DNA of 64,000 bases, taken from NCBI GenBank assembly GCA_040218145.1, contig JAVJQK010000076.1, positions 1 through 64,000 on the forward strand. The letters are read 5' to 3'. The notes under the pieces were generated by a model that saw only the letters and a list, made by a program, of their open reading frames with translations, did no database searches and was not told where the DNA came from. The position numbers were made by a program, and so were the translations under genes. This DNA is from Sandaracinaceae bacterium. GTDB lineage: Bacteria > Myxococcota_A > Polyangia > Polyangiales > Sandaracinaceae. Below, piece by piece: positions 28,518 through 54,454 of the stretch. How positions within the stretch are numbered: the stretch's first letter is position 1; each line of letters begins with the position of its first letter.

Positions 28518-29459
28518 TCATCGAGCCTCCGGTCGCGAGAGCAGGCGCTCGGCGTTCTCACCCATGATGGCGCGCCGCTCCCGGTCGCTCAGCGGCGCGG
28601 CCTCGAGCCAAGCCACGTGGTCGCGTGGGCTCAGCGAAGGAAAGTCCGATCCGAGAAGCACGCGGTGGATGCCGAGCTGACGCCAGCTCTCCACGAAGTG
28701 CGGCGCCGCCTCGACGGGCACGTGGGTCAGCCCGCTCACCTCGATCCACAGGTTGTCCGGCGCCTCCCGGAGCAGCGCGAGGTTCGGGGCGATCTGGTGC
28801 GCCGCGATGACGACGGCGGCGGGGTGGTCGCGCGCGAGCTCGAACAACGCGCGTACTTCGTCTGCGTCTTGCATCTGCACGTGGATGAGGACGGGCAGAC
28901 GGGAGGTCGCGGCCGCATCGAGGATCGCCCCGAGGGCTGCGCGCGGCGACTCGTCGCGTAGCGACACGTCCGCGGACACCTGGTGCATCTTCAGCCCTGC
29001 GGCCCCCGCCTCTGCGCACCGCGCGACCTCTGCGGAGGTCCACCCGCTCTCCCAGGGAACACCACAGAAGACCCACAGCCGGCTGGGCGCCACTAGACGC
29101 TCAGCGAGCGCCCAGTCGTTCATCGCCTGCGTGAAGAGTCGCTGCGCTTCGCAGGGGTCGTCCGCGCACCCGGGCGCCCGCCGATAGCCTGGAGACAAGA
29201 GCACCCCGCGTGCGAGCCCTGCCTCGTCCAGCGCCGCGAGGACGGCGGCTCCCGAGCTCTCGCCCTGCCCCGGCACGGCGGGTCCGACGTGCATGTGCAC
29301 GTCGACACCGACCAGGCGCGGCGGGACGGCCGACGCTGTCCGCGTCGACTCCGCCGGGGCACGCGACGCGCCACAGCCCGTGAAGGCGACGCTCAGCAGC
29401 ATGGCCCAGAGCCCAGACCTTTCCGGAGAGCGACAGCCGTGCTTGGCGCGGACGAGCAT
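28518..29459 (-). CDS. Amidohydrolase-family lipoprotein (TIM-barrel metal hydrolase)
   Basis: 313 aa. The chosen ATG 29459 gives MLVRAKHGCRSPERSGLWAML..., then a lipobox FTGC near residue 28; ATG 29402 would leave a very short signal. Metal-ligand motifs of the amidohydrolase_2 family are in order: VDVHMHVG (HXH), LKMHQV (Lys/His), LIHVQM (His), IAAHQ (His) and LLGSDFPS (Asp). All are present, so hydrolysis or decarboxylation by a bound metal is expected. The substrate is unknown. It sits divergent from the HEAT-repeat gene with a 244-base gap. Confidence 0.82.
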   Translation of the reverse strand: MLVRAKHGCRSPERSGLWAMLLSVAFTGCGASRAPAESTRTASAVPPRLVGVDVHMHVGPAVPGQGESSGAAVLAALDEAGLARGVLLSPGYRRAPGCADDPCEAQRLFTQAMNDWALAERLVAPSRLWVFCGVPWESGWTSAEVARCAEAGAAGLKMHQVSADVSLRDESPRAALGAILDAAATSRLPVLIHVQMQDADEVRALFELARDHPAAVVIAAHQIAPNLALLREAPDNLWIEVSGLTHVPVEAAPHFVESWRQLGIHRVLLGSDFPSLSPRDHVAWLEAAPLSDRERRAIMGENAERLLSRPEAR

Positions 29460-29703
29460 ACGCGGACCTGGGTACCAGAACGGATCGCGACTGCCGAGGG
29501 GGGATCCGCGGCCCGCGCGCCTACCGGCCACGCGCGCTCCTGTGAAGGCGACGGGCGGTCCATTGCTCGGCTGCCGCGAGATGGCGTCGGCGTCGGACCG
29601 ACCGTCCGAGCGACAGTGCATCCGGGGCGCGCCGGTACGCCGGCCGGGAGGCCTCGGGATCGGCTCTTGTGATCGTGCGATGGCGCGGCCAGAGTGGGAC
29701 GCC

Positions 29704-32700
29704 ATGTCCACCCTCGACCACCTCGAGCGCTCGCCGGCCGGGGAGGCGCTGCGGCGCCTCCAAGAGGTCGAGGTTCGCGTCGCGTCCGATCGCGAGGAGG
29801 CGCGGAGGGTGGCCGCTTCGCTCCCCGCACATCACGACGACGTCGAGGTGCGCGCCGCGCTCGCGAGGCTGACGCTTCGGCTCGCCCGCTTCGGGCCCGC
29901 CTCGCCCGACGGCTTCGATCCCGAGCCGGCGCTGCGCCCCCTGTGGGACGCCGCCGCCTGTGCCGCGGACGCCGAACGCACGGGCGCTTGGTCCGACGCG
30001 CGTGTGCTCCGCGCGCTGCGCCATCTCTCGCCGAGCGCGGTCGTGCAGCCAGCGCTGGTCCTGCGGCGTCTGGCGCGTGTCGAATCCACCCAGGCCGTCC
30101 GTGCGCTTCAGTGGGCACGCGAGTCGGTCGCGCTGGCGGCGGTGACGTCCGAGCGGGCGCTGCTGGAGCTCGCGCCGTTGGCCGAGCATCACGAGGTGGA
30201 CGCGCGCGTCGCCTTTGCGGACGCGCTCGCGGAGCCGTGGCTCGCGCTGGCGGACGCGCGAGCATTCGTGCGCAGGGGGCTTCGCGACGAGAGCCCGGAC
30301 GTCGTGCGCCGGGCGCTGCGGATGGCCGAGGAGGACGACGCGCAGCGAGCGCGCGAGCTCGCCGAGGAGCGCGAGCTGCGTGCGGACGCGGCGCTGGCCC
30401 TGGCCCGGATCGGAGACGCCGAGGATCTGGCGCGCTCGCTCGACGTGCGGCGCGCGGTCCTGGCTCATCATCGCGCGGGGCGCTTCCCGCGAGACGCGCA
30501 CATGCCGGAGCTGATGCAGGCGTACCTCGGCGACGACGGGTGGACGCCGCTGGAGCTGGCGCGCGTGACGTACACATCCCGCGCCGCGCTGCTGGACGTG
30601 CTCGCGGCGGTCCCGGTCGACGATGTGCGCTGGAGGCGCCTGGCCATGCTCCTGGCGCACGTCGAAGGCAGCTCCTCGAGCGGTGAGCGAGGACGCGATC
30701 TCCTCGCGACGCGGCTCCGCGCCTCGAAGGACCTCGACGTGGCTCGCGCGTTGCTCACCGCGGCGGCCGAGTGTCCGGACTTCGTCGACGAGGAGGCGCT
30801 GCTCACGCATCTCGAGGTCCTGCCCGAGCGCACGTTCGACGCGCTGGGCGTCCATGGCACGACGCGCTCGCTCGAACGCGTCACGACCGCCCTGCGGGAT
30901 CCCGTCGCGTTCGGCGCGGCGCGTCGCGTGGCGCTCGACTGGTGCTGGCTCGTCGCCGAGGATCGCGTCGCGCTCATCGAGGAGCACGGCGCGGAGTCGT
31001 GGACGGACGCCCAGCTGGCGCGCGCGTCTGCGCCTCCCACCGAGTGGGTCGAGCGCACCCGACGGGCCGTGGCCGGCAGCGACCCGGGCGCCGCGCTGCA
31101 CGCGCTCGTAGGAGTCGGAGCGCCGCTCGCCGAGCTCCATGACGCCTTTCGTGGAGCGGTCCGGGCGGAGACGATCGCGCACGGCGCCCGGCGCCCGAGG
31201 GACCCGGACGCGCTGACGCAGGCGGAGAGGGCGCTCCTCCAGCGAGAACGAGCGCTCGCCCTGGACGGGCGTCGCGTCACGCGCTTCCGGGACGAGGGCA
31301 GCGGTCGACTGATCCGGGCGTTCGCGCTCGCGTGGCTCGCCGACGCGCGCGAGGCCGCGGACGCTCGGGACATGGTGCTCGCGCTCGGGGTGCTCGCCCG
31401 GCATCCACTTCACGCGAGCCAGCTCCGGTACGTCCATCCGCTCTGGCGACACGCCGATCGCGACGTGCAGCGCGCCGCGGTCGAGGCGCTCCTTCGCTGT
31501 GAGAACTCGGAGGGGCTGGCGCTCTCGCTGTCGCGCCTCGCCGAGGAGGAGGACGTGCGACCGCTGCGACAAGGTCTGCGCGCGATCGAGCACTTCGCGC
31601 CGCGATGGGCCGAGCCGCTGGCGATCGCGGCGCTGGGCTCGCCCAACATGAACGTGAAGAAGGCGGCGGCGAGCGCGCTCGCGTCGGTCGGGACCGCCCG
31701 CTGCGTGCGCGAGGTGCTGCGCTGGATCGCGGGACACGACAACCCAGGTCTCCGCGAGACCCTGGTCGAGGTGCTGACGAGCGTGGCGGGCGACGCGGCC
31801 GACGCCCTGCTCCTCGAGTCGCTCGAGCACGCCCCGCCTCACCACCACGCCAACCTGCTCGCGGTGCTCGATGGTCGGCTCGACGTGCGACAGGTCGCCC
31901 GCTTGATGGAGCGTGGCGGGCAGGCCGCGGAGCGAGTGGCGGAGGCGTGCCGCGCCGGGGCGGTCGGTCTCGCGCGCGGGAGCTGGGCCGACGTATTGGC
32001 CGAGGTGCACCGCGCCGCGATCCCGGCCCCGGTCGAGCCGACGGCGGTCGACCGTCTGGAGCGCGAGGGCTTCTCGCCGGCGCTCGCGCTCGAGGCGCTC
32101 GACGAGGACCCGCCTCAGCTGCGGCAGGCCATCCGTGCGCGGCGCGCGGAGTGGGCGCGGTGGGCCTGTGAGGCGCCCGAGACCCACGCCCGCCGCGCCG
32201 CGCACGCGGTGCTCTCGGCGATGGCCGACATCGAGCCTGCGCAGGCGCTGCGCCTCGCCGCGCGCGCCGAGACACCCGTCGAAGCGTGGGTCGCCTCGCG
32301 CGCGCTCGTCGCCGCGGCGTCCTCTCCCGAGCACCGCCACGCGGCGATCGGGATCGCGCGTGCGCTCCCGATGCTCGAGCACGAGAGGTGGCTCGTGCTC
32401 GGTGAGCTCCGCGCGGTTCGGACGCGGGAGGAGCTCGAGAGGGCGCTCGACGCCGCCGCAGCCCACGGCGCGATGGGGCAACTCCTGCGCGCGCTCTTCC
32501 CCGCGCGGAGTGGGGAGCTGGTGTCCCTGCCTCCGCCCAATCGGCGCGCCCGCGTCCTCGACGCGCACCTCGAGGGGCTCCCTCCACGCCGCCGATACGA
32601 AGCGCGGCCGACTCGGAGCATCAAGACCACTCTGCACGACTTCCTGTCGGGGAAGACCGCCCTGCCGCACGATCCGAGGGCGCGCGAGGAGCTCGCCGAG

Positions 32701-33498
32701 GCGTTGCAGGAGTGGCCCGCGGACGAACGCGAGAGCCGCCGCGCGCTCGGTCTGATCCCGCACCTCCCGTTGCATCGGGTTCGGAGCTGGTTGCCGCGAT
32801 GGGTGGAGCGAGCCGAGGCCGGCGACGAGGCCGCGCTGAGCCTGGTGGAGGCGGTGCCCAGCGAGGAGCTGCTCGCGCACGCCGCGTTGAGCGCGGATCA
32901 GGTCTCCGCGCTCGTCTCGCGCACGCTCCCGCGCGACGCGCGGTTGACGCGCGCGATGCGGAGCGCTCGCCTCGGCGAGATGGACGTCGCGCCCGCGCCG
33001 AAGGAGCCGGACCCCGTCGATCCGCTCGACGAGGTCGTGGGCGCCGACGCGCTGCTCGAGTACGCGCTCTCCGCGCGGGGTCGGGAGGCGTCGCGCGCGA
33101 TCGGTCGGCTCGGAGGGCTCGGCGCGCGCGAGCACCTGCTGCGCCTCGTCGACCACCCGGACTCGAACCCACGAACCGTCGCGCTGCGCTGGCTGCGCAA
33201 GCTGCTCGATCGCGACGCGTACCTCGCGCTGGCCCTCGAGCGGCTGGGCGAGGAGCGCGACGCCCATCTACGCCGCAGCCTCCTCAGAGGTGTCGCGCAT
33301 CGTCGTCATCGGCCGTCGTACCCGACGCTCGTGGCGCTCATGCTCGATCGCGACCGGCGGATCGCGCGCGAAGCGGCGGAGGCGGTCCGCCGACTCGGCT
33401 CGGCGATCCAGGGCGAGCTCGACCGAGCGATGGCCCACGAACGCCCCGACCGCGCGCGGAAGCTGCGCGCCATCGTGGAGGCGTGGTCATCAGACTGA
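29704..33498 (+). CDS. Giant HEAT-repeat protein
   Basis: 1264 aa, almost wholly helical, with many HEAT/PBS-lyase-type repeats. Clear examples are DRDVQRAAVEALLRCENSE (about 588-606), NMNVKKAAASALASVGTARC and REAAEAVRRLGSAI near the end. There is no signal, membrane helix or catalytic motif, so it is a scaffold of unknown partner. It resembles the HEAT-array proteins common in Myxococcota predatory and motility loci, though the context here gives no clue. ATG 29704 is chosen; ATG 29680 (MARPEWDAM) is a close alternative. Confidence 0.85.
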   Translation: MSTLDHLERSPAGEALRRLQEVEVRVASDREEARRVAASLPAHHDDVEVRAALARLTLRLARFGPASPDGFDPEPALRPLWDAAACAADAERTGAWSDARVLRALRHLSPSAVVQPALVLRRLARVESTQAVRALQWARESVALAAVTSERALLELAPLAEHHEVDARVAFADALAEPWLALADARAFVRRGLRDESPDVVRRALRMAEEDDAQRARELAEERELRADAALALARIGDAEDLARSLDVRRAVLAHHRAGRFPRDAHMPELMQAYLGDDGWTPLELARVTYTSRAALLDVLAAVPVDDVRWRRLAMLLAHVEGSSSSGERGRDLLATRLRASKDLDVARALLTAAAECPDFVDEEALLTHLEVLPERTFDALGVHGTTRSLERVTTALRDPVAFGAARRVALDWCWLVAEDRVALIEEHGAESWTDAQLARASAPPTEWVERTRRAVAGSDPGAALHALVGVGAPLAELHDAFRGAVRAETIAHGARRPRDPDALTQAERALLQRERALALDGRRVTRFRDEGSGRLIRAFALAWLADAREAADARDMVLALGVLARHPLHASQLRYVHPLWRHADRDVQRAAVEALLRCENSEGLALSLSRLAEEEDVRPLRQGLRAIEHFAPRWAEPLAIAALGSPNMNVKKAAASALASVGTARCVREVLRWIAGHDNPGLRETLVEVLTSVAGDAADALLLESLEHAPPHHHANLLAVLDGRLDVRQVARLMERGGQAAERVAEACRAGAVGLARGSWADVLAEVHRAAIPAPVEPTAVDRLEREGFSPALALEALDEDPPQLRQAIRARRAEWARWACEAPETHARRAAHAVLSAMADIEPAQALRLAARAETPVEAWVASRALVAAASSPEHRHAAIGIARALPMLEHERWLVLGELRAVRTREELERALDAAAAHGAMGQLLRALFPARSGELVSLPPPNRRARVLDAHLEGLPPRRRYEARPTRSIKTTLHDFLSGKTALPHDPRAREELAEALQEWPADERESRRALGLIPHLPLHRVRSWLPRWVERAEAGDEAALSLVEAVPSEELLAHAALSADQVSALVSRTLPRDARLTRAMRSARLGEMDVAPAPKEPDPVDPLDEVVGADALLEYALSARGREASRAIGRLGGLGAREHLLRLVDHPDSNPRTVALRWLRKLLDRDAYLALALERLGEERDAHLRRSLLRGVAHRRHRPSYPTLVALMLDRDRRIAREAAEAVRRLGSAIQGELDRAMAHERPDRARKLRAIVEAWSSD

Positions 33499-44479: not shown

Positions 44480-47400
44480 TCAGCGCGCGGCGCGAACCTC
44501 GACGACGCGCAGGTCGCCCATCGCGATCAACGCCATCGCGTCGGTCACCGACATCGGCACGTGATCGCCTCCCACGCGGTCGACGCCCCCCGTCGGGTCG
44601 ATCTCCCGGAAGCGCTCGCCGTCGTGGTAGGTGACCCACGCGTGGGCCACCAGCTCGCCCGCCGCAGAGGTGAAGCCCTCGCGCACCTCCGCCGGGATGC
44701 CGCGGCGACGGAGCAGCGCGACCGCGAGGCGGGCGTGCTCCGTGCAGTCACCGCGCTCGCGCGCGAGGATGGTGGACGCGTCGAGGTTCTCCGAGGTCAG
44801 CTCGTAGCGCAGGTGCGCGTGCACCCAGCTCGAGACGGCCGCCGCGACGTCGGCCGCGGAGGCGTCGGCGGGAGCGAGCGCGCTCGCCGCGCCGACGATC
44901 TCCGGCGCGTCCAGCCGGAGCATCGGATCGGCCCGGAGCAGCCGCTCGCGCTCCGTCGCGGGGAGCACGCCGGCGTCGGCGACGGTGGCCACGGTCACCT
45001 CGAGGCGACGCTCCCCCACGACGCGCGCGCGGACGCGGCGACGGTTGCCGAACAGCCGGGCCGCGACCAGCTCGGGGTCCGAGACCTCGAGCACGAAGGT
45101 CAGCGCGCCGTCCGACTCCGCGTCCCGTATGCGGCGCGGCAGCGTGATGGCGTTGCGCGTGCTGCCGAGCGCGTGGTCGATGACGAGGCGGTCGTCGCTC
45201 TCGGACGCGAGGTTGGGGAGGGCGCGCGTCACCACGTGCATCGTCTCTCCTTCGACGGTCGCCTCGAAGGAGAGCTCGCGGCCGAGGCCGACCATGGCGC
45301 CCATCATGCCGATGGACTGGCGACGAGGATCGTCGGCCGAGAGCCCGCCCGCGATGCCCATCAGGATCGCGGCCCCGCGCGCACCGTCGAGCGAGCCGAG
45401 GCCGACGCGCGCCTCCGTGGCGCCGGGATCCGCGTCTCGCGTGGCGACGACGTCGGCCTCGTGCGTCCCCACCACGATGAGATCTCCGCGGCGGGCATAG
45501 CGCAACTGTCCGTGCGATACGACGGCGCCGTCCGAGGGGTAGGGGATCTCGCCCTCGGCGAAGGCCTCCTCCATCGCCTCGCCCGCGCGGACGGCCGACA
45601 CCCAGCGGTCCCAGACGCCGCCGCCCGACGGGTACCAGCCGAACGCGAAGCCCTCCGCGCGCGAGAGCAAGTGGTACGGCGGGCGCCGCGGCTCCTCCGG
45701 GTCCAGCCCGGGCGATCCGAGCGCGCCGTTCGTTTGCGATCCGAGCGCCAGCCCGATGCGCGCGACCGCGCCGGGCGGCAAGCGCGCGGCGAGCCCGCTG
45801 ACGTCCGCCAGGTCCTCCTCCTCGAGGGGCAAGGTGATCTCGGTGGTGATGCCGGCGCCGTCGGCGACCATCTCGAGGCTCACCTGCGACCACGGCATCG
45901 GCACCTGCGCCTCCACCTCGACGTTCACGTTCGCCATCTGCAGCGCCGCGCCCTCGGACCAGCCGCGGGTGAGGCGCTGGAAGGTGCGGTCGCCCGCGAG
46001 CGTGCGGCCGCGCGGCAGCGGGCGCGCGAGGATGGCGCGCGCCGTCGTCTCGAGGCCGAAGAAGAGCACCCGATCCCCCGTGAACAGGTAGTGCTCGGTG
46101 TCGATGGAGGCGTCGCCACCCTCGCGCACCTGGAAGGTCGCGAAGCGGTCGAAGGTCACCCCGCCCAGGCGCACCACGCTGCGGCTCCGCTCCTGGTCGA
46201 GCACGCGGCCCCCGCCCCACGCCTGCGACGGCTCCTCGGGAGGCGGAGGGTGCAGCATCGAGTCCAGCGCGGTCGGGAGCGCGCCCGCGATGGAGGGCAA
46301 CGACGCCGCGAGCTGCGAGACCTCGAGCTGGAGGGCGACCCCGCTGTTGGTGCCGAGGGGGCGACGGGCCAGGACGTCTCGCACCCGGTCGCGGTCGGCG
46401 ACATAGGCCGCGCACACCCAGGCCGGCGGGAAGCGATCCGATCGCGCGCACTCCACGGGCCGGCCGAGATCGAGCCCCCCGTCGGGACCGAGCAGCTCAC
46501 CGCCGAGGTGCTCGACCATCATCGCGATCGACCGCCGCGCGATCGCGGTGTCCATGGCGCTGCCGGACTGCAGGCGCGAGTGCAGCTGCTGCAGGGTGGC
46601 GAGGAAGAGCGCCGGCTGGGGCACGCGGGTGTACGTCCAGTGACCGCCGGGGAGCACCTCGGGCAGCGGCGTGGTGGCCAGCCGGCGCACGACCGCGCTC
46701 GAGAGCCGATCGCGGCGGAGCACCTCGCGCGTCAGGCGATAGCCCTCGGCGAACCGCTGCACCCGCTCGTTCTCCGAGCGCTCGCGCCCGAGCGCGTGCC
46801 GCAAGATCGCGAGGTCCCAGTCGAGCCGGTTGTGCAGCAGCCGGATGGACGGATCCTCGCTCCCCTCGGTGGCCGCGAACGCGCGCTCGAGGCGAGGCAG
46901 GTCCGCGGCGTCGAGGTAGCGGGCGAGCCGGTACGACAGCGTCTGCGCCAGGCGCCGATCGGCGTCATCGGAGTAGTCGATGATCGCGTCGAAGCGCGTC
47001 CGCATGATCTCGTGGTCCTCGGCGTCGAGCACGTTCCACGAGGAGTGCAGCGCCAGCGTCGCGTCCTCCGCGGTGCCGGAGACGACGGCCTCCCGCAGGC
47101 GCGCGCGCGGCAGGGTGTCACCCACCGCGTAGTTCGACGCGAAGGCGAGGGCGCGCAGGCGCGGGTCGGCGTGCCGGGTCAGCGCGTCGGTCACCGCGTA
47201 CCGCTGCGCCTGCGGCAGCGCGCCGAGCAGCTCCGCCAGACCGAAGCCTGGCAGGCTCGTCTCGTAGCGGCCCAGCCCGGACGCCGCCCGCCCGGGGGGC
47301 AGCTCGCTCAGCGACGTGACCAGGGCGGCCGCCCGGTCGGCGTCGGCGCGCACGGCCGCGATCCCGAAGTCGTGGATGCGCGGGTCCGGATCCAGCGCGG

Positions 47401-50400
47401 CCGCGAGGCCGAGCCCGCCATGCACGCCCTCCTGCGGGTCGACGCAGGCGATGAGCCGCCGACGCGCCGACGTGTCCAGCGTGGTCAGGTAGAGCGCGCG
47501 CACCAGCGCGCCGCGGTCGGCGGGCGCCTCGAGCGTGGTCAGCGACTCGGTGATCGGGCAGGCCTCCCCCTCGCTGGCCTCGAGCGCGAGCCTTGCGGCC
47601 CACATCGCGGGCCACGGCGTCGTCACCTCGCCGCGGAGCCGCTCGCTCCACGCCGCGCCGACCACCACGTCGACGGGGCGGAAGGTCTGCTCGTAGCTGC
47701 GCACGACCATGAGCAGGCTCGCCAGCTGGCGCACCGTGCCGCCGACCGAGATCGTGTAGACCCTGGTGCCGACGGGCACGATGGTGAGGAGCAGGGCGCG
47801 CGGGCCCCGCGTGAAGAGCGCACGCCGTCCTTCGCCCACCGGGATCGTCACGGGCGCGGTCCAGCGGTGCTGGAACCCGGCGCGCGTGATCTGCGGCGCG
47901 ATCTGATCGACACAGGTCGCGGCGTCGCAGTCCGAGTGGCGAGGGTCGGCGGAGACCGTCGCCCGCACGTTCCGATAGCTGGCCGCCGTCTCCCCGGTCG
48001 CCTCGAAGCCCGGCGGGATCCATACCTCGGCCCCGCTCGTCAGGCTCACTCCGCGGGTCGGCGCGTCGAAGCGCGCGACGGAGAGCGCCTCGTCCACCGC
48101 GGCGAGCTCACGCGTGGCGAGCACCGGGTCGGCGGCCCAGTCCGGGAGCGGCACCTCCGGCAGCAGCGTCGCCGCCTCGAGACGCGGATCGTCGGGGAAG
48201 GTCTCGCGCATCGAGGCGAGCTGGGCGTCGACCTCGGCTTCGCCGAGCACGATCACCCACATCGGCATCGCGACGAGGAGCGCGGTGGGCCGGGGGCTGC
48301 GCTCGGCGAGGGCGTGGAGGGCCTGGACCGTGTCGGGGCCTACGCCGTTCTGCATCGCGTGCATCGCGCCCGCGTAGGTGACGAGTCGCGACTCGGAGTG
48401 CGCCCTCACGAGCGGCACCACGACGGCCGCCGGGTAGTCGAGCATGCGCGCCCGAACGAACGCGTTGAGCCCGTCGGTCCCGATCTCGTCCGCGTCGACG
48501 TCTTCGCGCGCCCACGCCACGAGGTCACGCACCAGGTACGCGCGAGAGAGATCCTCACCGCCTTCGTGGGCCTCGTTCACGAAGGCGAACGCGAGGGTCA
48601 TGTAGTCCTCCGCCAGCGTCACGTCGCCCTCGGCGAGCGCGAACACGGCGCGGTGAGTCGCCGTCTCGACCGACGTGCCTCGCGTGTCGACCTGCGTCCT
48701 GAGGGAGACCCCGCGGTACGGCGCCTGCCCGACCTCCCACGTCTCCACCCTCCAGTCGTCGGAGCCGGCGGCGAGGGCGCGGAGGCGCCAGACCGCGGCC
48801 TCGTCGTGCCGGCCGCGGATCGTGTGCCAGTCGGCGATGTTCTGGTGGAGCCCGGACTCGGGGACGGACTCGCTGGTGCGCGCGAGGCGCGCGAAGACGC
48901 GGTCCTCGTTCACGCCGCGCGCGGCCGCCCCGTTTGGATCGGCGCGGATCGCCCAGCCCAGGCGGACCGCCATCGTGCCGGGCGCGCCGGGCCGGCGATG
49001 GGCGCGGAGGCACGGCGCGAGCGCGGCCTCCGCGTCGCCGGCGCCCGCGTGCATCGTGCACGTCACCGGATCGAGCCGCGGGTCGGCGGGAGCGCGCGCG
49101 TCGAGCCAGGCGCGGAGCCCGGACACGTCGGCGTCCGGATCCCACCAGTCGCGGAACACCTCCCAGGCGAGCGCGTTGCCCAGGGGCTCGCGCGCGTCCA
49201 GCAGCTCCTCGAGGTAGCGCGCGACGAGATCGTCGGGATGATCGCGCACGAACGCGCGCGCCGCCTCGATGTCGTCGGCGAGCCATCGGAGCATCGCCAC
49301 CCGGCCCAGGTCGTGCGGGTCGTCCGGGTCGTCCTCGAGCTGCGCGAGGCGCTCGCTCGCCTCTCGCGCGCGCCGCACCGCGAGCGCGGCGTCGGTGCTC
49401 TCGGCGACCCGGTCGATGAGCGCACTCCGCCACTCGCGTTGCTGTGCTGCAGTGAGGAGTCGGGCGACCGCGAGCGGGGTCTCGGCGGAGACGCGCTCCC
49501 CGGCCACGATGTGTTCGTGCAGCGTCCGGGCGTCTGGCGCCGCGTTCGCCTCGAGCAGCTGCCGGGTCAAGCGCTCTCGCCGCGTGCTCCAGCCGACCCA
49601 AGCCGCCGCGTCGGCGGGGCGCGCGTCCCCCTCGATCTCGAGGCGCGCGAGACCGACGCGTTGGCGGAGGCGATCGGCCCGAGGCTGTCGGAGGGCGGCG
49701 GTGCGGTACGCGGCGAGCGCCTCCTCGGTGCGTCCATCGGCTGCGACGACGCGGCCCGCGAAGTAGGCGGCCTCGGCCGACCCGGGGGCGCTCTCCTGGA
49801 GGGCGCGCGTCCAGTGACGGAGACGGGCCGAGTCGCCGCGTCGGTCGGCGGCCTCGGCGAGCACCGCGAGCCCGAGGCTTCGCGCCGCCGGCGGGAGCTC
49901 CGGGAGCGCCGAGGCCAGCGACTCGGGGGGCACGGCGCGGCCCCAGTAGAGGCGACTGGCGGCCGTGCGCAGCCGCGAGACGGCGGGTCCCTCGAGGGGC
50001 GCGGCGGGTTCCTCGTCCCGCTCGAGCGGGATGCGCAAGAGCGGCTCCGCGATCCACGCGGACCCCGGCGGTCCCCCATCGTCTCGCGCCAGCTCCGCCT
50101 CGAGGGCCGCGGCGCCGGGGCGAGGGAGCAGAGCGCCTCTCTGCGCGAAGAGCGCCTCCGCGGCGGCGCGATCCCCGCCCAGCAGCGCGAGCGAGATCGA
50201 CACGCTCACCCAATCCGCCCGCAACGCGACCTCGGTCCCCTCGAGCTCGGCGAGCCAGCGGCGCAGGTCGGCGCGCTCCGCGTCGCTCACCTCGAGCGCG
50301 GCGTAGAGGAGGTTGGCGTGCACGCCCGAGCGGCTCCCCAGGAGCGCGAGCGTGTCCCGCCCCTCCTCGGCCTCCGGCCAGGTGCCATCGAGGAAGTCGT

Positions 50401-51721
50401 CCTCGAGCCTCATCCGCGCCTCGCACGTCTCGTCGTCGAGCGCGCGGAGCACACAGCTGCTCGCGGCCACGGCGTAGCTCCGGTTCGAGCGCGCCAGCGA
50501 CTGGAGCGCGGTGAGACGGAGGCCGCGAGGCGCGTCGGCGTCGATCGCGACGGCGTAGGCGACGGTCCACGTGGCGTCCGCGCCCAGCCGCTCGACCTCT
50601 CGGCGCGCGAGCCGCGCGATGGCCCCCCGGGTGGCCGGAGACTCGCTGGAACCAGCGTCGAAGCCGTCGATGATCGCGTTGAGCAGCGGGGCCGGGAGCC
50701 AGTCCGCGTCGACGAGGGCGGTGAGCGCCCCGGCGTCGTCGGCCTGCAGGTCGGCGAGCGCCACGATGAGGTCGGCCATCGCGCGGGTCTCCTCGTCGGC
50801 GGCGTCGCGACGCGCGCGAGCCGCCATCCGCCGCGCGTCCGGGCCTTGCTGGAAGAGGATCGCTCCCCAGGCGCTGGCCAGCGCCACGATCGGGTCGTGG
50901 GGGCGCTCCCGACGCGCCAGCTCGAGCGCCGCCATGTCCCGCAGGGTGGCGACCGTGACGGGGACGTGGCTGACCACCGCGCGGGTCCCCGGGGTCGCCG
51001 CGAGCCGCGTCATCAGCCAGGCGGGCACGTGCCTGTGCTCGAACGTCTGGAGCGAGCGGGCGACCTCCAGCGCCACCTCGACGCGCTCGCGCCGACGCGC
51101 GCGGTCGAGCCGCCGCTCGAGGTGGTCGCGGGCCACGGGTCCGATGGACGCCATCTCGTGAAGGGACGGCTCGAGCGCTTCGGGGAGCGCGGCGTCGTCC
51201 GTGAGGGTCGCCCACACGCGAGGCGGGAGGACCGCCGCGAGCGCGTCCGAGGTCTCCGCGGGCAGCCGGCGCACGCGCTCGAGCCGGCCGAGACCTGCGA
51301 TCACGTCCGCCCAGGGGGCCAGGTCGCGGACGTCCCACAGCGCGTCGAGCACGGTCCGGTCGGCGCCCGCCTGCCGCGCCCCCTCGATCACCCACGCGCG
51401 CGTCTCCTCCAGCCGGGTCCGCGCCCGCTCGAGCTCCGCGCCGCGCGCGGTGGCCACGTCGGCGCGCGACAGCTCCATCGCCAGGCCCCACGTCAGGATG
51501 GCCTCCTTGCGCTGGCCGAGCGCGACCTCGAGCTCCGCGAGCCGACGCAGCCGGTCCAGATCCGCGGCGGGCGCCCCCGTCAGGTCGTCGCGGTGCCCGA
51601 GCGCCAGGCGGGCGCGGGTCTGCGCGTCGGTGACCGGAGGCAGCTCGGTCCGCAGGGAGATGAGGTGGCTCGGGCCGCAGCCCACGAGCAGGAGGAAGGC
51701 GAGGGAGATGGCGCGGGTCAT
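44480..51721 (-). CDS. Giant lipoprotein with C-terminal transglutaminase-like domain
   Basis: 2413 aa. MTRAISLAFLLLVGC is a lipoprotein signal. The first ~1300 residues are helix-rich, TPR-like repeats (SAEAAYFAGRVVAADGRTEE read in part). A beta-rich middle contains a hydrophobic SYRNVRATV region. From about 1750 to 2200 are further mixed domains. The last ~120 residues are a transglutaminase core with the full triad: Cys2326 (RGDCTEHA), His2360 (HAWVTYHDG) and Asp2375 (EIDPTGG). It would act outside the inner membrane, as a protease or crosslinker. ATG 51721 is the only start that gives a signal. It is among the longest genes in the window; its partners are unknown. Confidence 0.85.
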   Translation of the reverse strand: MTRAISLAFLLLVGCGPSHLISLRTELPPVTDAQTRARLALGHRDDLTGAPAADLDRLRRLAELEVALGQRKEAILTWGLAMELSRADVATARGAELERARTRLEETRAWVIEGARQAGADRTVLDALWDVRDLAPWADVIAGLGRLERVRRLPAETSDALAAVLPPRVWATLTDDAALPEALEPSLHEMASIGPVARDHLERRLDRARRRERVEVALEVARSLQTFEHRHVPAWLMTRLAATPGTRAVVSHVPVTVATLRDMAALELARRERPHDPIVALASAWGAILFQQGPDARRMAARARRDAADEETRAMADLIVALADLQADDAGALTALVDADWLPAPLLNAIIDGFDAGSSESPATRGAIARLARREVERLGADATWTVAYAVAIDADAPRGLRLTALQSLARSNRSYAVAASSCVLRALDDETCEARMRLEDDFLDGTWPEAEEGRDTLALLGSRSGVHANLLYAALEVSDAERADLRRWLAELEGTEVALRADWVSVSISLALLGGDRAAAEALFAQRGALLPRPGAAALEAELARDDGGPPGSAWIAEPLLRIPLERDEEPAAPLEGPAVSRLRTAASRLYWGRAVPPESLASALPELPPAARSLGLAVLAEAADRRGDSARLRHWTRALQESAPGSAEAAYFAGRVVAADGRTEEALAAYRTAALRQPRADRLRQRVGLARLEIEGDARPADAAAWVGWSTRRERLTRQLLEANAAPDARTLHEHIVAGERVSAETPLAVARLLTAAQQREWRSALIDRVAESTDAALAVRRAREASERLAQLEDDPDDPHDLGRVAMLRWLADDIEAARAFVRDHPDDLVARYLEELLDAREPLGNALAWEVFRDWWDPDADVSGLRAWLDARAPADPRLDPVTCTMHAGAGDAEAALAPCLRAHRRPGAPGTMAVRLGWAIRADPNGAAARGVNEDRVFARLARTSESVPESGLHQNIADWHTIRGRHDEAAVWRLRALAAGSDDWRVETWEVGQAPYRGVSLRTQVDTRGTSVETATHRAVFALAEGDVTLAEDYMTLAFAFVNEAHEGGEDLSRAYLVRDLVAWAREDVDADEIGTDGLNAFVRARMLDYPAAVVVPLVRAHSESRLVTYAGAMHAMQNGVGPDTVQALHALAERSPRPTALLVAMPMWVIVLGEAEVDAQLASMRETFPDDPRLEAATLLPEVPLPDWAADPVLATRELAAVDEALSVARFDAPTRGVSLTSGAEVWIPPGFEATGETAASYRNVRATVSADPRHSDCDAATCVDQIAPQITRAGFQHRWTAPVTIPVGEGRRALFTRGPRALLLTIVPVGTRVYTISVGGTVRQLASLLMVVRSYEQTFRPVDVVVGAAWSERLRGEVTTPWPAMWAARLALEASEGEACPITESLTTLEAPADRGALVRALYLTTLDTSARRRLIACVDPQEGVHGGLGLAAALDPDPRIHDFGIAAVRADADRAAALVTSLSELPPGRAASGLGRYETSLPGFGLAELLGALPQAQRYAVTDALTRHADPRLRALAFASNYAVGDTLPRARLREAVVSGTAEDATLALHSSWNVLDAEDHEIMRTRFDAIIDYSDDADRRLAQTLSYRLARYLDAADLPRLERAFAATEGSEDPSIRLLHNRLDWDLAILRHALGRERSENERVQRFAEGYRLTREVLRRDRLSSAVVRRLATTPLPEVLPGGHWTYTRVPQPALFLATLQQLHSRLQSGSAMDTAIARRSIAMMVEHLGGELLGPDGGLDLGRPVECARSDRFPPAWVCAAYVADRDRVRDVLARRPLGTNSGVALQLEVSQLAASLPSIAGALPTALDSMLHPPPPEEPSQAWGGGRVLDQERSRSVVRLGGVTFDRFATFQVREGGDASIDTEHYLFTGDRVLFFGLETTARAILARPLPRGRTLAGDRTFQRLTRGWSEGAALQMANVNVEVEAQVPMPWSQVSLEMVADGAGITTEITLPLEEEDLADVSGLAARLPPGAVARIGLALGSQTNGALGSPGLDPEEPRRPPYHLLSRAEGFAFGWYPSGGGVWDRWVSAVRAGEAMEEAFAEGEIPYPSDGAVVSHGQLRYARRGDLIVVGTHEADVVATRDADPGATEARVGLGSLDGARGAAILMGIAGGLSADDPRRQSIGMMGAMVGLGRELSFEATVEGETMHVVTRALPNLASESDDRLVIDHALGSTRNAITLPRRIRDAESDGALTFVLEVSDPELVAARLFGNRRRVRARVVGERRLEVTVATVADAGVLPATERERLLRADPMLRLDAPEIVGAASALAPADASAADVAAAVSSWVHAHLRYELTSENLDASTILARERGDCTEHARLAVALLRRRGIPAEVREGFTSAAGELVAHAWVTYHDGERFREIDPTGGVDRVGGDHVPMSVTDAMALIAMGDLRVVEVRAAR

Positions 51722-51782
51722 GGGAAGCCAGGACCCTTGCGCAAGCCCCCGGGCGATGCAACTTCCCTTGAAGACTGTCCGC

Positions 51783-52652
51783 TCAGAGACCCCTGTGGCG
51801 CTCGTCGCGGAGGGGGATGTCGCCGCGCAGCGCCGCGTCGATGACCGAGACGATGCGCTCGCGATCGCGCGGCAACCGACCGCCGAGCGGGAGGTAGTTG
51901 CTCGCGTGGTTGGTGCGGAAGAGCGCGTCCGTCGGGCGCGCCAGGTCGACCATCGTGCGCAGCTCCTGCAGCAGCGCGGGCACGGGCGGGACCTCGAACT
52001 TGCCCTTCGCACGCAGGGTCGCGAGCGGCGTGCCCGGGACCACGGTCACCGTCAGGGCCGCGAAGTAGGCCGGGTCCATCTCGGTCACCAGCCGCGCCGT
52101 GGCCTCCGCGTGCGCCTCGGCCCGCTCGGGCGCGATGCCCAGCAGGGCGATCACGCTCAGCTTCATGCCCGCCGCGTGCGCCCGCTGCGCCGCCTCGACG
52201 TGCCCCTGAAACGTGTCGCCCTTGGCGATGCGCTTGAGCGTGGCGTCGTCGCCCGACTCGGGGCCGATGTAGAGCGTGCTCAGCCCGTGCTCCCGCAGCG
52301 TGGCCAGCTCCGCGTCGGTCTTGTCCCGGACGTTGCGCGCCATCGCGTAGCAGCTGACCCGGCGCAGCCGCGGGAAGCGCGCGCGCGCCCGCTCGAGGAT
52401 GGGCAGCCAGTGATCCATCGGCATCACCAGCGCGTCGCCGTCGGCCACGAAGAGCTTCTCGATGCGGCCGCCCGACGCCTCCGCCGCCGCGTCCAGGTCC
52501 TCGAGGCTCTCCTCGAGCGGGCGCAGCGCGAAGTCCTTGTCGCGGTACATGTCGCAGTAGGTGCAGTGGTTCCACGAGCACCCGACGGTCGCCTGGAGGA
52601 TGTAGGCGTCGGCCTCGGACGGCGGCCGGTAGATGCGACCCTGATAACGCAC
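51783..52652 (-). CDS. Radical SAM enzyme, unassigned subfamily
   Basis: 289 aa from GTG 52652. The cluster motif is Cys25-X4-Cys30-X2-Cys33 (GCSWNHCTYC), one residue longer than the common CX3CX2C but found in several radical SAM families. A (beta/alpha) barrel follows, with LYIGPESGDD and a cobalamin/coproporphyrinogen-oxidase-like layout. There is no B12 domain. It is divergent from the flavin halogenase 59 bases away, so a shared pathway is possible. Confidence 0.85.
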   Translation of the reverse strand: MRYQGRIYRPPSEADAYILQATVGCSWNHCTYCDMYRDKDFALRPLEESLEDLDAAAEASGGRIEKLFVADGDALVMPMDHWLPILERARARFPRLRRVSCYAMARNVRDKTDAELATLREHGLSTLYIGPESGDDATLKRIAKGDTFQGHVEAAQRAHAAGMKLSVIALLGIAPERAEAHAEATARLVTEMDPAYFAALTVTVVPGTPLATLRAKGKFEVPPVPALLQELRTMVDLARPTDALFRTNHASNYLPLGGRLPRDRERIVSVIDAALRGDIPLRDERHRGL

Positions 52653-52696
52653 GCTCGGGGGATGGCCCGTCAGTGGCCGAGGCGCAAGGGCGGCAC

Positions 52697-52702
52697 TATC
52701 CT
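52697..52702 (+). promoter_or_regulatory. -10 hexamer (TATCCT) near the halogenase start
   Basis: It ends 9 nt before ATG 52712. It supports that codon over the upstream GTG 52673. Confidence 0.45.
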
Positions 52703-52711
52703 CGCGGCCGA

Positions 52712-54454
52712 ATGCAGGAGCAGGCGCAGGAGCAGGAACAGGTCGTCATCTGCGGCGGCGGCCTCGCGGGCCTCACCCTCGCCCGCCAGCTGCGGCGTCA
52801 GCTGCCCGGGGTCTCCGTCGTCGTCGTCGACCGGCAAGCGCGGCCGCTGCCGGAGGCGACGCACAAGGTCGGCGAGTCGAGCGTGGAGCTGGGCAGCCGC
52901 TACTTCGAGCACACCCTCGGGCTCCGCGACTACCTGCTCGAGCAGCACCTGGTGAAGAACGGCCTGCGCTTCTTCCCCGGCGGCGGACACCTCCCGCTCG
53001 CCCAGCGCACGGAGCTCGGCCCGCCCCAGCTGCCCGTGGTCCCCTCGTTCCAGCTCGACCGCGGGCGCTTCGAGAACGACCTCCGCGCCTTCTGCGAGGA
53101 GGACGGCGTCACGCTCATCGAGGGCGTGGGCGTGAAGGACGTCCGGCTCGCCGCGAGCGACACGAGCGACCTGCACGAGATCGAGCTCGAGGACGGGCGC
53201 GTGCTCACCGCGCGCTGGGTCGTCGACGCGAGCGGCCGCAGGCGGCTGCTCACCCGCAAGCTCGGGCTCGGCGAGGACAGCGGGCACCACGCGCACGCGG
53301 CCTGGTTCCGGCTCGACGGGCGCCTCGACGTCGGCCACCTCGTGCCCGAGGAGGAGAGCGCCTGGCACGGCCGGGATCTCGACGGCATCCGCTGGCTCTC
53401 CACCACCCACCTCATGGGCGAGGGCTACTGGGCGTGGATAATCCCGCTCTCGAGCGGCAAGACCAGCATCGGCATCGTCGCGCACGGCGAGGTCCACGAC
53501 TTCACGTCGATGAACACCCTCGAGCGGTCGCTCGCGTGGCTCGAGGCGCACGAGCCCGTCCTGCGCGAGAAGATCGCCGCCTTCGAGGTGGCCGACTTCC
53601 GCTGCCTCAAGGACTACAGCTACACCTCCACGCGGTGCCTGTCGGCCGATCGCTGGGCCGCGGTGGGCGAGGCGGGACTCTTCGTCGACCCGTTCTACAG
53701 CCCCGGCTCGGACTTCATCGCGCTGGCCAACGTGCACACGGGCGAGCTGATCCGGCGCGAGCTGGCGGGCGAGGACATCCGCGCCCACGCCGAGTTCGTC
53801 GACTGGTTCTACCGACGCCTCGCCGCGATCTCGACCGAGACCTACAGCCACGCCGCGAAGGTCTACGGCCAGCCGCGCGTGATGGCGGCGAAGATCTACT
53901 GGGACAACTTCAATTACTGGGCCTTCGTCTGCCAGTACTTCTTCCAGGGCCTGTGGGCGCTCGACCTCGACGGCCAGAAGCGCTTCGTCGACGTCGCGCA
54001 GCGCTTCGCCTCGCTGAACCTCCGCGCCCAGCGCCTCTTCGCCGCGTGGGCCGCGCGCGCCGCCGACGCCCCGGACGGCAAGAGCGTCGTCTTGCCGCCC
54101 ATCCCGTCGATGCTCGCCAACCTCCACCTCGACCTCGAGCGCGAGATGAGCCCCGACGAGACCCTCGCCTACATGGACGAGAAGGCCGACGCGGCCGAGG
54201 AGCTGTTGACCGATCTCCTGCTCCGCGCCGCGGCCGAGGTCGGCGACGCGGTGGTCGCGGAGTCCGGCGCGAGCGACTGGCCCCTGGCCGGCCTCGACGC
54301 CCGCGTCGCGGCCGAAGACGGCCCCAAGCGCGGCCGCCGCCGCCGCCTCAGCAAGCTCGCCCGCGACGTCGAGCGCTGCCTCGGCCCCGTCAACGGCTCC
54401 GTCCTCGAAGCCGGCCGCCGCCTCCGCCCCGCCCCCCTGCACGCCGGCGCCTGA
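52712..54454 (+). CDS. Flavin-dependent halogenase-like protein
   Basis: 580 aa. The FAD-binding GGGLAG (15-20) in VVICGGGLAGLTLARQL, then HKVGESSVE (51-59), LTARWVVDASGR, and the WXWXIP motif Trp240-Ala-Trp242-Ile-Ile-Pro245 place it with flavin-dependent halogenases of the tryptophan-halogenase superfamily (PF04820). Lys52 in THKVGES sits near the position of the halogenase Lys, but this assignment is inference. The long C-terminal region (about 330-580) may bind a carrier or substrate. No NRPS/PKS genes lie in the window, and no flavin reductase is adjacent. Confidence 0.85.
   Translation: MQEQAQEQEQVVICGGGLAGLTLARQLRRQLPGVSVVVVDRQARPLPEATHKVGESSVELGSRYFEHTLGLRDYLLEQHLVKNGLRFFPGGGHLPLAQRTELGPPQLPVVPSFQLDRGRFENDLRAFCEEDGVTLIEGVGVKDVRLAASDTSDLHEIELEDGRVLTARWVVDASGRRRLLTRKLGLGEDSGHHAHAAWFRLDGRLDVGHLVPEEESAWHGRDLDGIRWLSTTHLMGEGYWAWIIPLSSGKTSIGIVAHGEVHDFTSMNTLERSLAWLEAHEPVLREKIAAFEVADFRCLKDYSYTSTRCLSADRWAAVGEAGLFVDPFYSPGSDFIALANVHTGELIRRELAGEDIRAHAEFVDWFYRRLAAISTETYSHAAKVYGQPRVMAAKIYWDNFNYWAFVCQYFFQGLWALDLDGQKRFVDVAQRFASLNLRAQRLFAAWAARAADAPDGKSVVLPPIPSMLANLHLDLEREMSPDETLAYMDEKADAAEELLTDLLLRAAAEVGDAVVAESGASDWPLAGLDARVAAEDGPKRGRRRRLSKLARDVERCLGPVNGSVLEAGRRLRPAPLHAGA

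Follow-up and report, generated by a model that had tools for sequence, protein, structure and literature searches.

The solved structure nearest by profile to the protein described here (E 9.9e-13) is that of TgpA of Pseudomonas aeruginosa (PDB 6g49 and 6g4h), a 688-residue inner-membrane protein with six transmembrane helices and a DUF3488 domain. Transglutaminase activity in vitro has been reported for the periplasmic domain of TgpA, and the superfamily also includes hydrolases, such as WbmE, a deamidase that acts on LPS O chains (PMC3507681). The DUF3857-transglutaminase proteins are exported, carry DUF3857 ahead of a C-terminal transglutaminase-type (TG) domain and may contain helical repeats, and the lasso peptide B2 proteins (NF033537) belong to the same superfamily. 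A functional precedent for joining a scaffold to an envelope enzyme is the LbcA–CtpA system of P. aeruginosa, in which a spiral TPR lipoprotein of the outer membrane serves an envelope protease (PMC8764530).

We analysed a 64,000-nucleotide stretch of contig JAVJQK010000076.1 (hereafter the window), from a Sandaracinaceae (Myxococcota) assembly of 11.06 Mb in 148 contigs, and found that it encodes a giant lipoprotein of 2413 residues that ends in a domain with the same type of Cys-His-Asp triad as TgpA. Relatives were sought with the C-terminal 413 residues of the giant as the query. The family considered here has seven members, namely the window giant, four further TG-bearing proteins (L016, L017, L031, and L032) and two TG-less ones (L018 and L019). 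L016 and L017 come from the same taxonomic family as the window genome, L031 from the same order and L032 from the same class, and their full-length identity to the giant is 24–35%. The giant differs from TgpA in having a lipobox, and neither DUF3488 nor DUF3857 matches any of the seven proteins at E <= 1, which sets the family apart from the DUF3857-transglutaminase proteins as well. The same genome contains a locus, L054, that looks by eye like a DUF3857-transglutaminase protein. LbcA–CtpA consists of two separate proteins with a C-terminal processing protease as the enzyme, and is likened to the giant by function, not by sequence homology.

The gene of the giant lies on the minus strand, from an ATG at 51721 (MTRAISLAFLLLVGC) to a stop codon at 44480–44482. 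The original prediction for this DNA had the coordinates, length, and residue numbers right and gave no strand. Full-length homology to L016, L017, L031, and L032, together with G+C fractions of 0.78/0.54/0.94 at the three codon positions, the coding-strand pattern at such G+C, marks it as a genuine coding sequence. An alternative in-frame GTG upstream, at 52012, would give a 2510-residue frame; the ATG at 51721 is preferred because the protein then opens with a lipoprotein signal (MTRAISLAFLLLVG-C15), as does every homologue. Residues 1–901 have a 100% identical counterpart on a contig of MED-G138, a Sandaracinaceae bacterium assembled from metagenomic data, which places the window in that lineage of Myxococcota.

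The opposite strand carries an equally long open frame (44561–51844, plus strand, 2427 residues), which the original prediction had flagged as a hazard for annotation. We found that each of its codons is the reverse complement of one of the giant's, in exact register, and that its G+C is highest at its own first codon position. The frame stays open because the giant lacks TTA, CTA, and TCA codons, of which ~3.9 would be expected from the other genes of the window (Poisson probability of zero ~0.02). The six homologues have 0, 0, 1, 1, 2, and 10 such codons, so that the frame is interrupted in several of them and is not conserved. It is a by-product of codon use and shows no sign of being a gene. 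The warning was justified, and for annotation the locus illustrates well how long a spurious antisense frame can become when the genome is rich in G+C.

The N-terminus bears out the proposal of an exported lipoprotein. The signal peptide and lipobox occupy residues 1–15 (LVG-C15; 51677–51721, minus strand), and a PS00013-like lipobox pattern with the cysteine aligned to Cys15 is present in all seven family members. The giant is probably a membrane-tethered protein, with lipidation at Cys15 and anchoring in the envelope, including the membrane and its side, predicted from this pattern.

At the other end of the protein, a profile search identified a Transglut_core domain (PF01841) at residues 2289–2376 (44594–44857, minus strand), with a score of 48.4 bits (cut-off 23) and an E value of 1.3e-12. 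It is the sole confident Pfam family on the giant, Transglut_core3 matching more weakly, and its profile matches five of the seven family members. The proposed triad is complete and lies inside this match, with the codons of Cys2326 at 44744–44746, His2360 at 44642–44644, and Asp2375 at 44597–44599, all on the minus strand. All three residues are kept in the five TG-bearing members, which span three taxonomic families, as are the surrounding motifs GDC.E, VAHAWV..HDG, and RE.DPT. In the comparison of L016 with L017, constraint is strongest on the TG module, with a dN/dS of 0.086 there, 0.10 in the scaffold core, and 0.34 in residues 15–830. On both points that could have overturned the original prediction, the conservation of the triad and the signal peptide, the results favour it. 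The C-terminal domain is a transglutaminase-type cysteine enzyme domain that has been well preserved, and its activity is predicted. A conserved triad of this kind cannot distinguish a hydrolase from a transamidase.

The module itself is common in the phylum. Matches to it at E <= 1e-10 occur in 109 of 282 sampled Myxococcota genomes, mostly in open frames of ~500–550 residues. These TG proteins (L060, L061, L062, L079, L080, and others) are apparently exported and have a linker, a C-H-D domain, and a tail like those of the giant, but lack its 2,000-residue scaffold. In a profile–profile alignment (hhalign), the last ~210 residues of the giant matched the ends of 14 of the ~500-residue proteins with an HH probability of 99.9% (E 4.5e-35), a match that takes in the linker at residues 2200–2280 (44882–45124, minus strand). 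As judged from this alignment, the TG module shares its origin with these proteins. An additional homology between the core of the giant and their N-terminal half was considered and rejected (HH probability 0.6%). The original prediction had called a TPR-rich exported giant with an intact triad at its end unusual; what is rare is the fusion of the module to a giant lipoprotein, since the triad as such is widespread. The giant is best described as a rare protein in which a widespread enzyme module is fused to a lipoprotein scaffold that is undescribed. At two loci, L089 5540–7989 (plus strand) and L092 5496–7945 (minus strand), a ~500-residue TG gene is directly followed by a gene that looks by eye like an ABC transporter ATP-binding protein.

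The scaffold, ~2,190 residues long, falls into several parts. Residues 16–1200 (48122–51676, minus strand) are unassigned and probably form an α-helical solenoid, as suggested by weak TPR signals and low-confidence structure prediction. The description 'TPR-rich', the one weakly supported part of the original prediction, goes further than the signals found, which are local and weak: TPR_2 matches the giant at E 0.087, and a significant TPR_19 match (9.2e-5) occurs in just one of the seven family members. In a phmmer search, residues 621–693 matched designed TPRs of the PDB at E 0.0026. For the recommended structure prediction of the N-terminal part, a single-sequence AlphaFold2 model of residues 16–700 was all-helical and of low confidence (mean pLDDT 48). 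Its Foldseek matches were mostly to solenoids of the TPR/HAT type, LbcA included, which we take as a hint. Both structure models made without an alignment, this one and that of the TG domain, are of low confidence and too weak to carry claims, and the Foldseek matches of the TG model are meaningless.

Residues 1205–1345 (47687–48109, minus strand) form a domain without a Pfam match, in place of which the TG-less paralogues have an Ala/Pro/Glu-rich sequence. The ~750 residues at 1434–2190 match no family described in Pfam and are the better-conserved part of the scaffold across the family. They comprise a conserved region at 1434–1690 (46652–47422, minus strand), without a significant Pfam match, and the best-conserved core at 1690–2168 (45218–46654, minus strand). 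Two cysteine pairs, Cys888/Cys904 in the solenoid and Cys1758/Cys1770 in the core, are invariant in all seven members and might form disulphide bonds, in keeping with an exported protein. A resemblance of residues 1690–2280 to DUF3352 (PF11832), suspected by eye, was rejected: the core had no such Pfam match at E <= 10, and hhalign of the core against DUF3352-bearing proteins of the same class gave a probability of 2.1%.

Several other long proteins were seen in the course of this analysis. In the same genome, on contig C101, a 2488-residue frame (L049, 1444–8910, plus strand) matches Transglut_core close to its end (E 1e-5); its architecture differs by eye, and it was not taken to be a relative of the giant. 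Frames of ~1400–1565 residues at L050, L051, L052, and L055 appear to combine an FHA domain, a DUF3352-like region, and two DsbA-like thioredoxin domains in one chain, the FHA and DsbA assignments being by eye. Within the window, 29293–33498 (plus strand) encodes a 1401-residue protein whose sole Pfam match is to HEAT_2 repeats (E 1.1e-9).

We also examined the distribution of the scaffold and the TG-less copies. Within the order, a profile of the core matched at least 5 of 183 genomes, in one case by a short match (E 7e-4), and across the phylum at least 3 of 282 sampled genomes, counts that are lower bounds, as 5–8 candidates were scored per genome. No match was found on plasmids. The giants are a small, rare, and sparse family of myxobacterial lipoproteins whose front part is undescribed in the libraries searched. 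The TG-less paralogues L018 (14930–7470, minus strand) and L019 (5166–12506, plus strand) are second copies in two related genomes. Both retain the lipobox and the scaffold but lack the TG module, ending immediately ahead of it. The long low-complexity Ala/Pro/Glu-rich sequence takes the place of part of their middle, and this region evolves fast (dN/dS 0.44 between the two). In midpoint-rooted trees of two parts of the protein, on which long branches were flagged, L018 and L019 group with L016 and L017 inside the taxonomic family of the window genome, and the TG-bearing L031 and L032 fall outside. On the simplest account, the TG module would be ancestral and would have been lost in the L018 and L019 copies. 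No remnant of it was found downstream of their stop codons by tblastn and inspection; the stretches that tblastn returned there (E 0.8–6.8) lack the catalytic motifs and were dismissed as chance matches. Since these enzyme-free copies persist with lipobox and scaffold, the scaffold seems to be useful in its own right.

The surroundings of the giant vary between genomes. In the window, its neighbours are a radical SAM gene upstream and a GST gene downstream. The radical SAM gene (51783–52652, minus strand) shares the strand of the giant and is separated from it by 61 bp. Next to the radical SAM gene, in divergent orientation, is a gene resembling those of flavin-dependent halogenases (PF04820, E 2.4e-18; 52673–54454, plus strand). 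The neighbours are FHA-GGDEF and ArsR-methyltransferase genes at L016 and L017, histidine kinase and glycosyltransferase genes at L031, and MscS and DUF481 genes near L032. No conserved partner gene or operon was found among the homologues examined, and none of these loci showed a radical SAM neighbour; a conserved operon around the giant was accordingly rejected. Relatives of the ArsR-methyltransferase and MetH genes found after the giant in L016 and L017, 50–65% identical to them, lie ~6–9 kb from the giant in the window, which supports orthology and shows that some synteny remains.

On balance, and by no means firmly, we read the giant as an envelope-tethered thiol hydrolase or transamidase with a built-in recruiting scaffold. 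The lipidated N-terminal cysteine would anchor the protein in a membrane, probably the outer one, and the long, mostly helical scaffold would extend from there and bind partner or substrate proteins. The C-terminal module of linker, C-H-D domain, and tail could then attack what is bound, with Cys2326 forming a thioester intermediate; most likely, proteins or polymers of the envelope would be hydrolysed or deamidated/transamidated. The recruitment of substrates, the activity of the enzyme, and the kind of reaction are predictions from sequence. This reading is favoured by the Transglut_core match, the kept triad, the constraint on the module, the TgpA match, and the lipobox in all seven members, as well as by the homology of the module to the ~500-residue proteins, the LbcA–CtpA precedent, and the TG-less paralogues. 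Weighing against it, the varying flanking genes point to no substrate or partner, and the fold of the scaffold rests on low-confidence predictions.

Other readings have to be set against this one. The giant could be a true transglutaminase that cross-links surface or envelope proteins through their Gln and Lys side chains, with the scaffold arraying these substrates; this is an unlikely though serious candidate. The in vitro activity reported for TgpA, the nearest solved structure by profile, argues for it; the nearest sequence relatives, however, are uncharacterised TG proteins, and with hydrolases such as WbmE in the same superfamily (PMC3507681) the catalytic core alone is indecisive. That the TG domain is instead a maturation device for the giant itself or a dedicated partner, the scaffold being the working part, strikes us as improbable. 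The TG-less paralogues, which do without any trace of the module, are compatible with it, but the strong constraint on the module and its homology to free-standing enzymes suggest other substrates. Non-catalytic TG-like domains exist in general, and a fold retained here for binding alone, without catalysis, is conceivable; the triad and the GDC.E, VAHAWV, and DPT motifs, invariant in all five TG-bearing members, make this very improbable. We give hardly any credence to a peptide-modification pathway in which the TG-like domain would act as a leader peptidase, in the manner of lasso B2, together with the radical SAM gene. Its appeal lies in the closeness of that gene, with the halogenase-like gene beyond it, and in an NCBIfam lasso_biosyn_B2 (NF033537) match at residues 2303–2369. 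That match scores 30.2 bits, under the equivalog-domain cut-off of 33, the radical SAM neighbour is peculiar to the window among the loci examined, neither a precursor peptide nor a lasso C protein was identified, no lasso cluster was seen at the giant, and a 2413-residue lipoprotein is unlike the B2 proteins.

We therefore retain the tethered enzyme with its recruiting scaffold as the preferred reading. A long shot is that the TG-bearing and TG-less giants make up a two-part envelope machine with a new core fold, in which one scaffold would serve with and without an enzyme and the substrates of the TG-bearing copy would be regulated or shielded by the enzyme-free one. The scaffold, including the stretch at 1434–2190, likely holds new envelope domains, and the natural pair of TG-bearing and TG-less giants in two genomes lends itself readily to testing the contribution of the enzyme by genetics.
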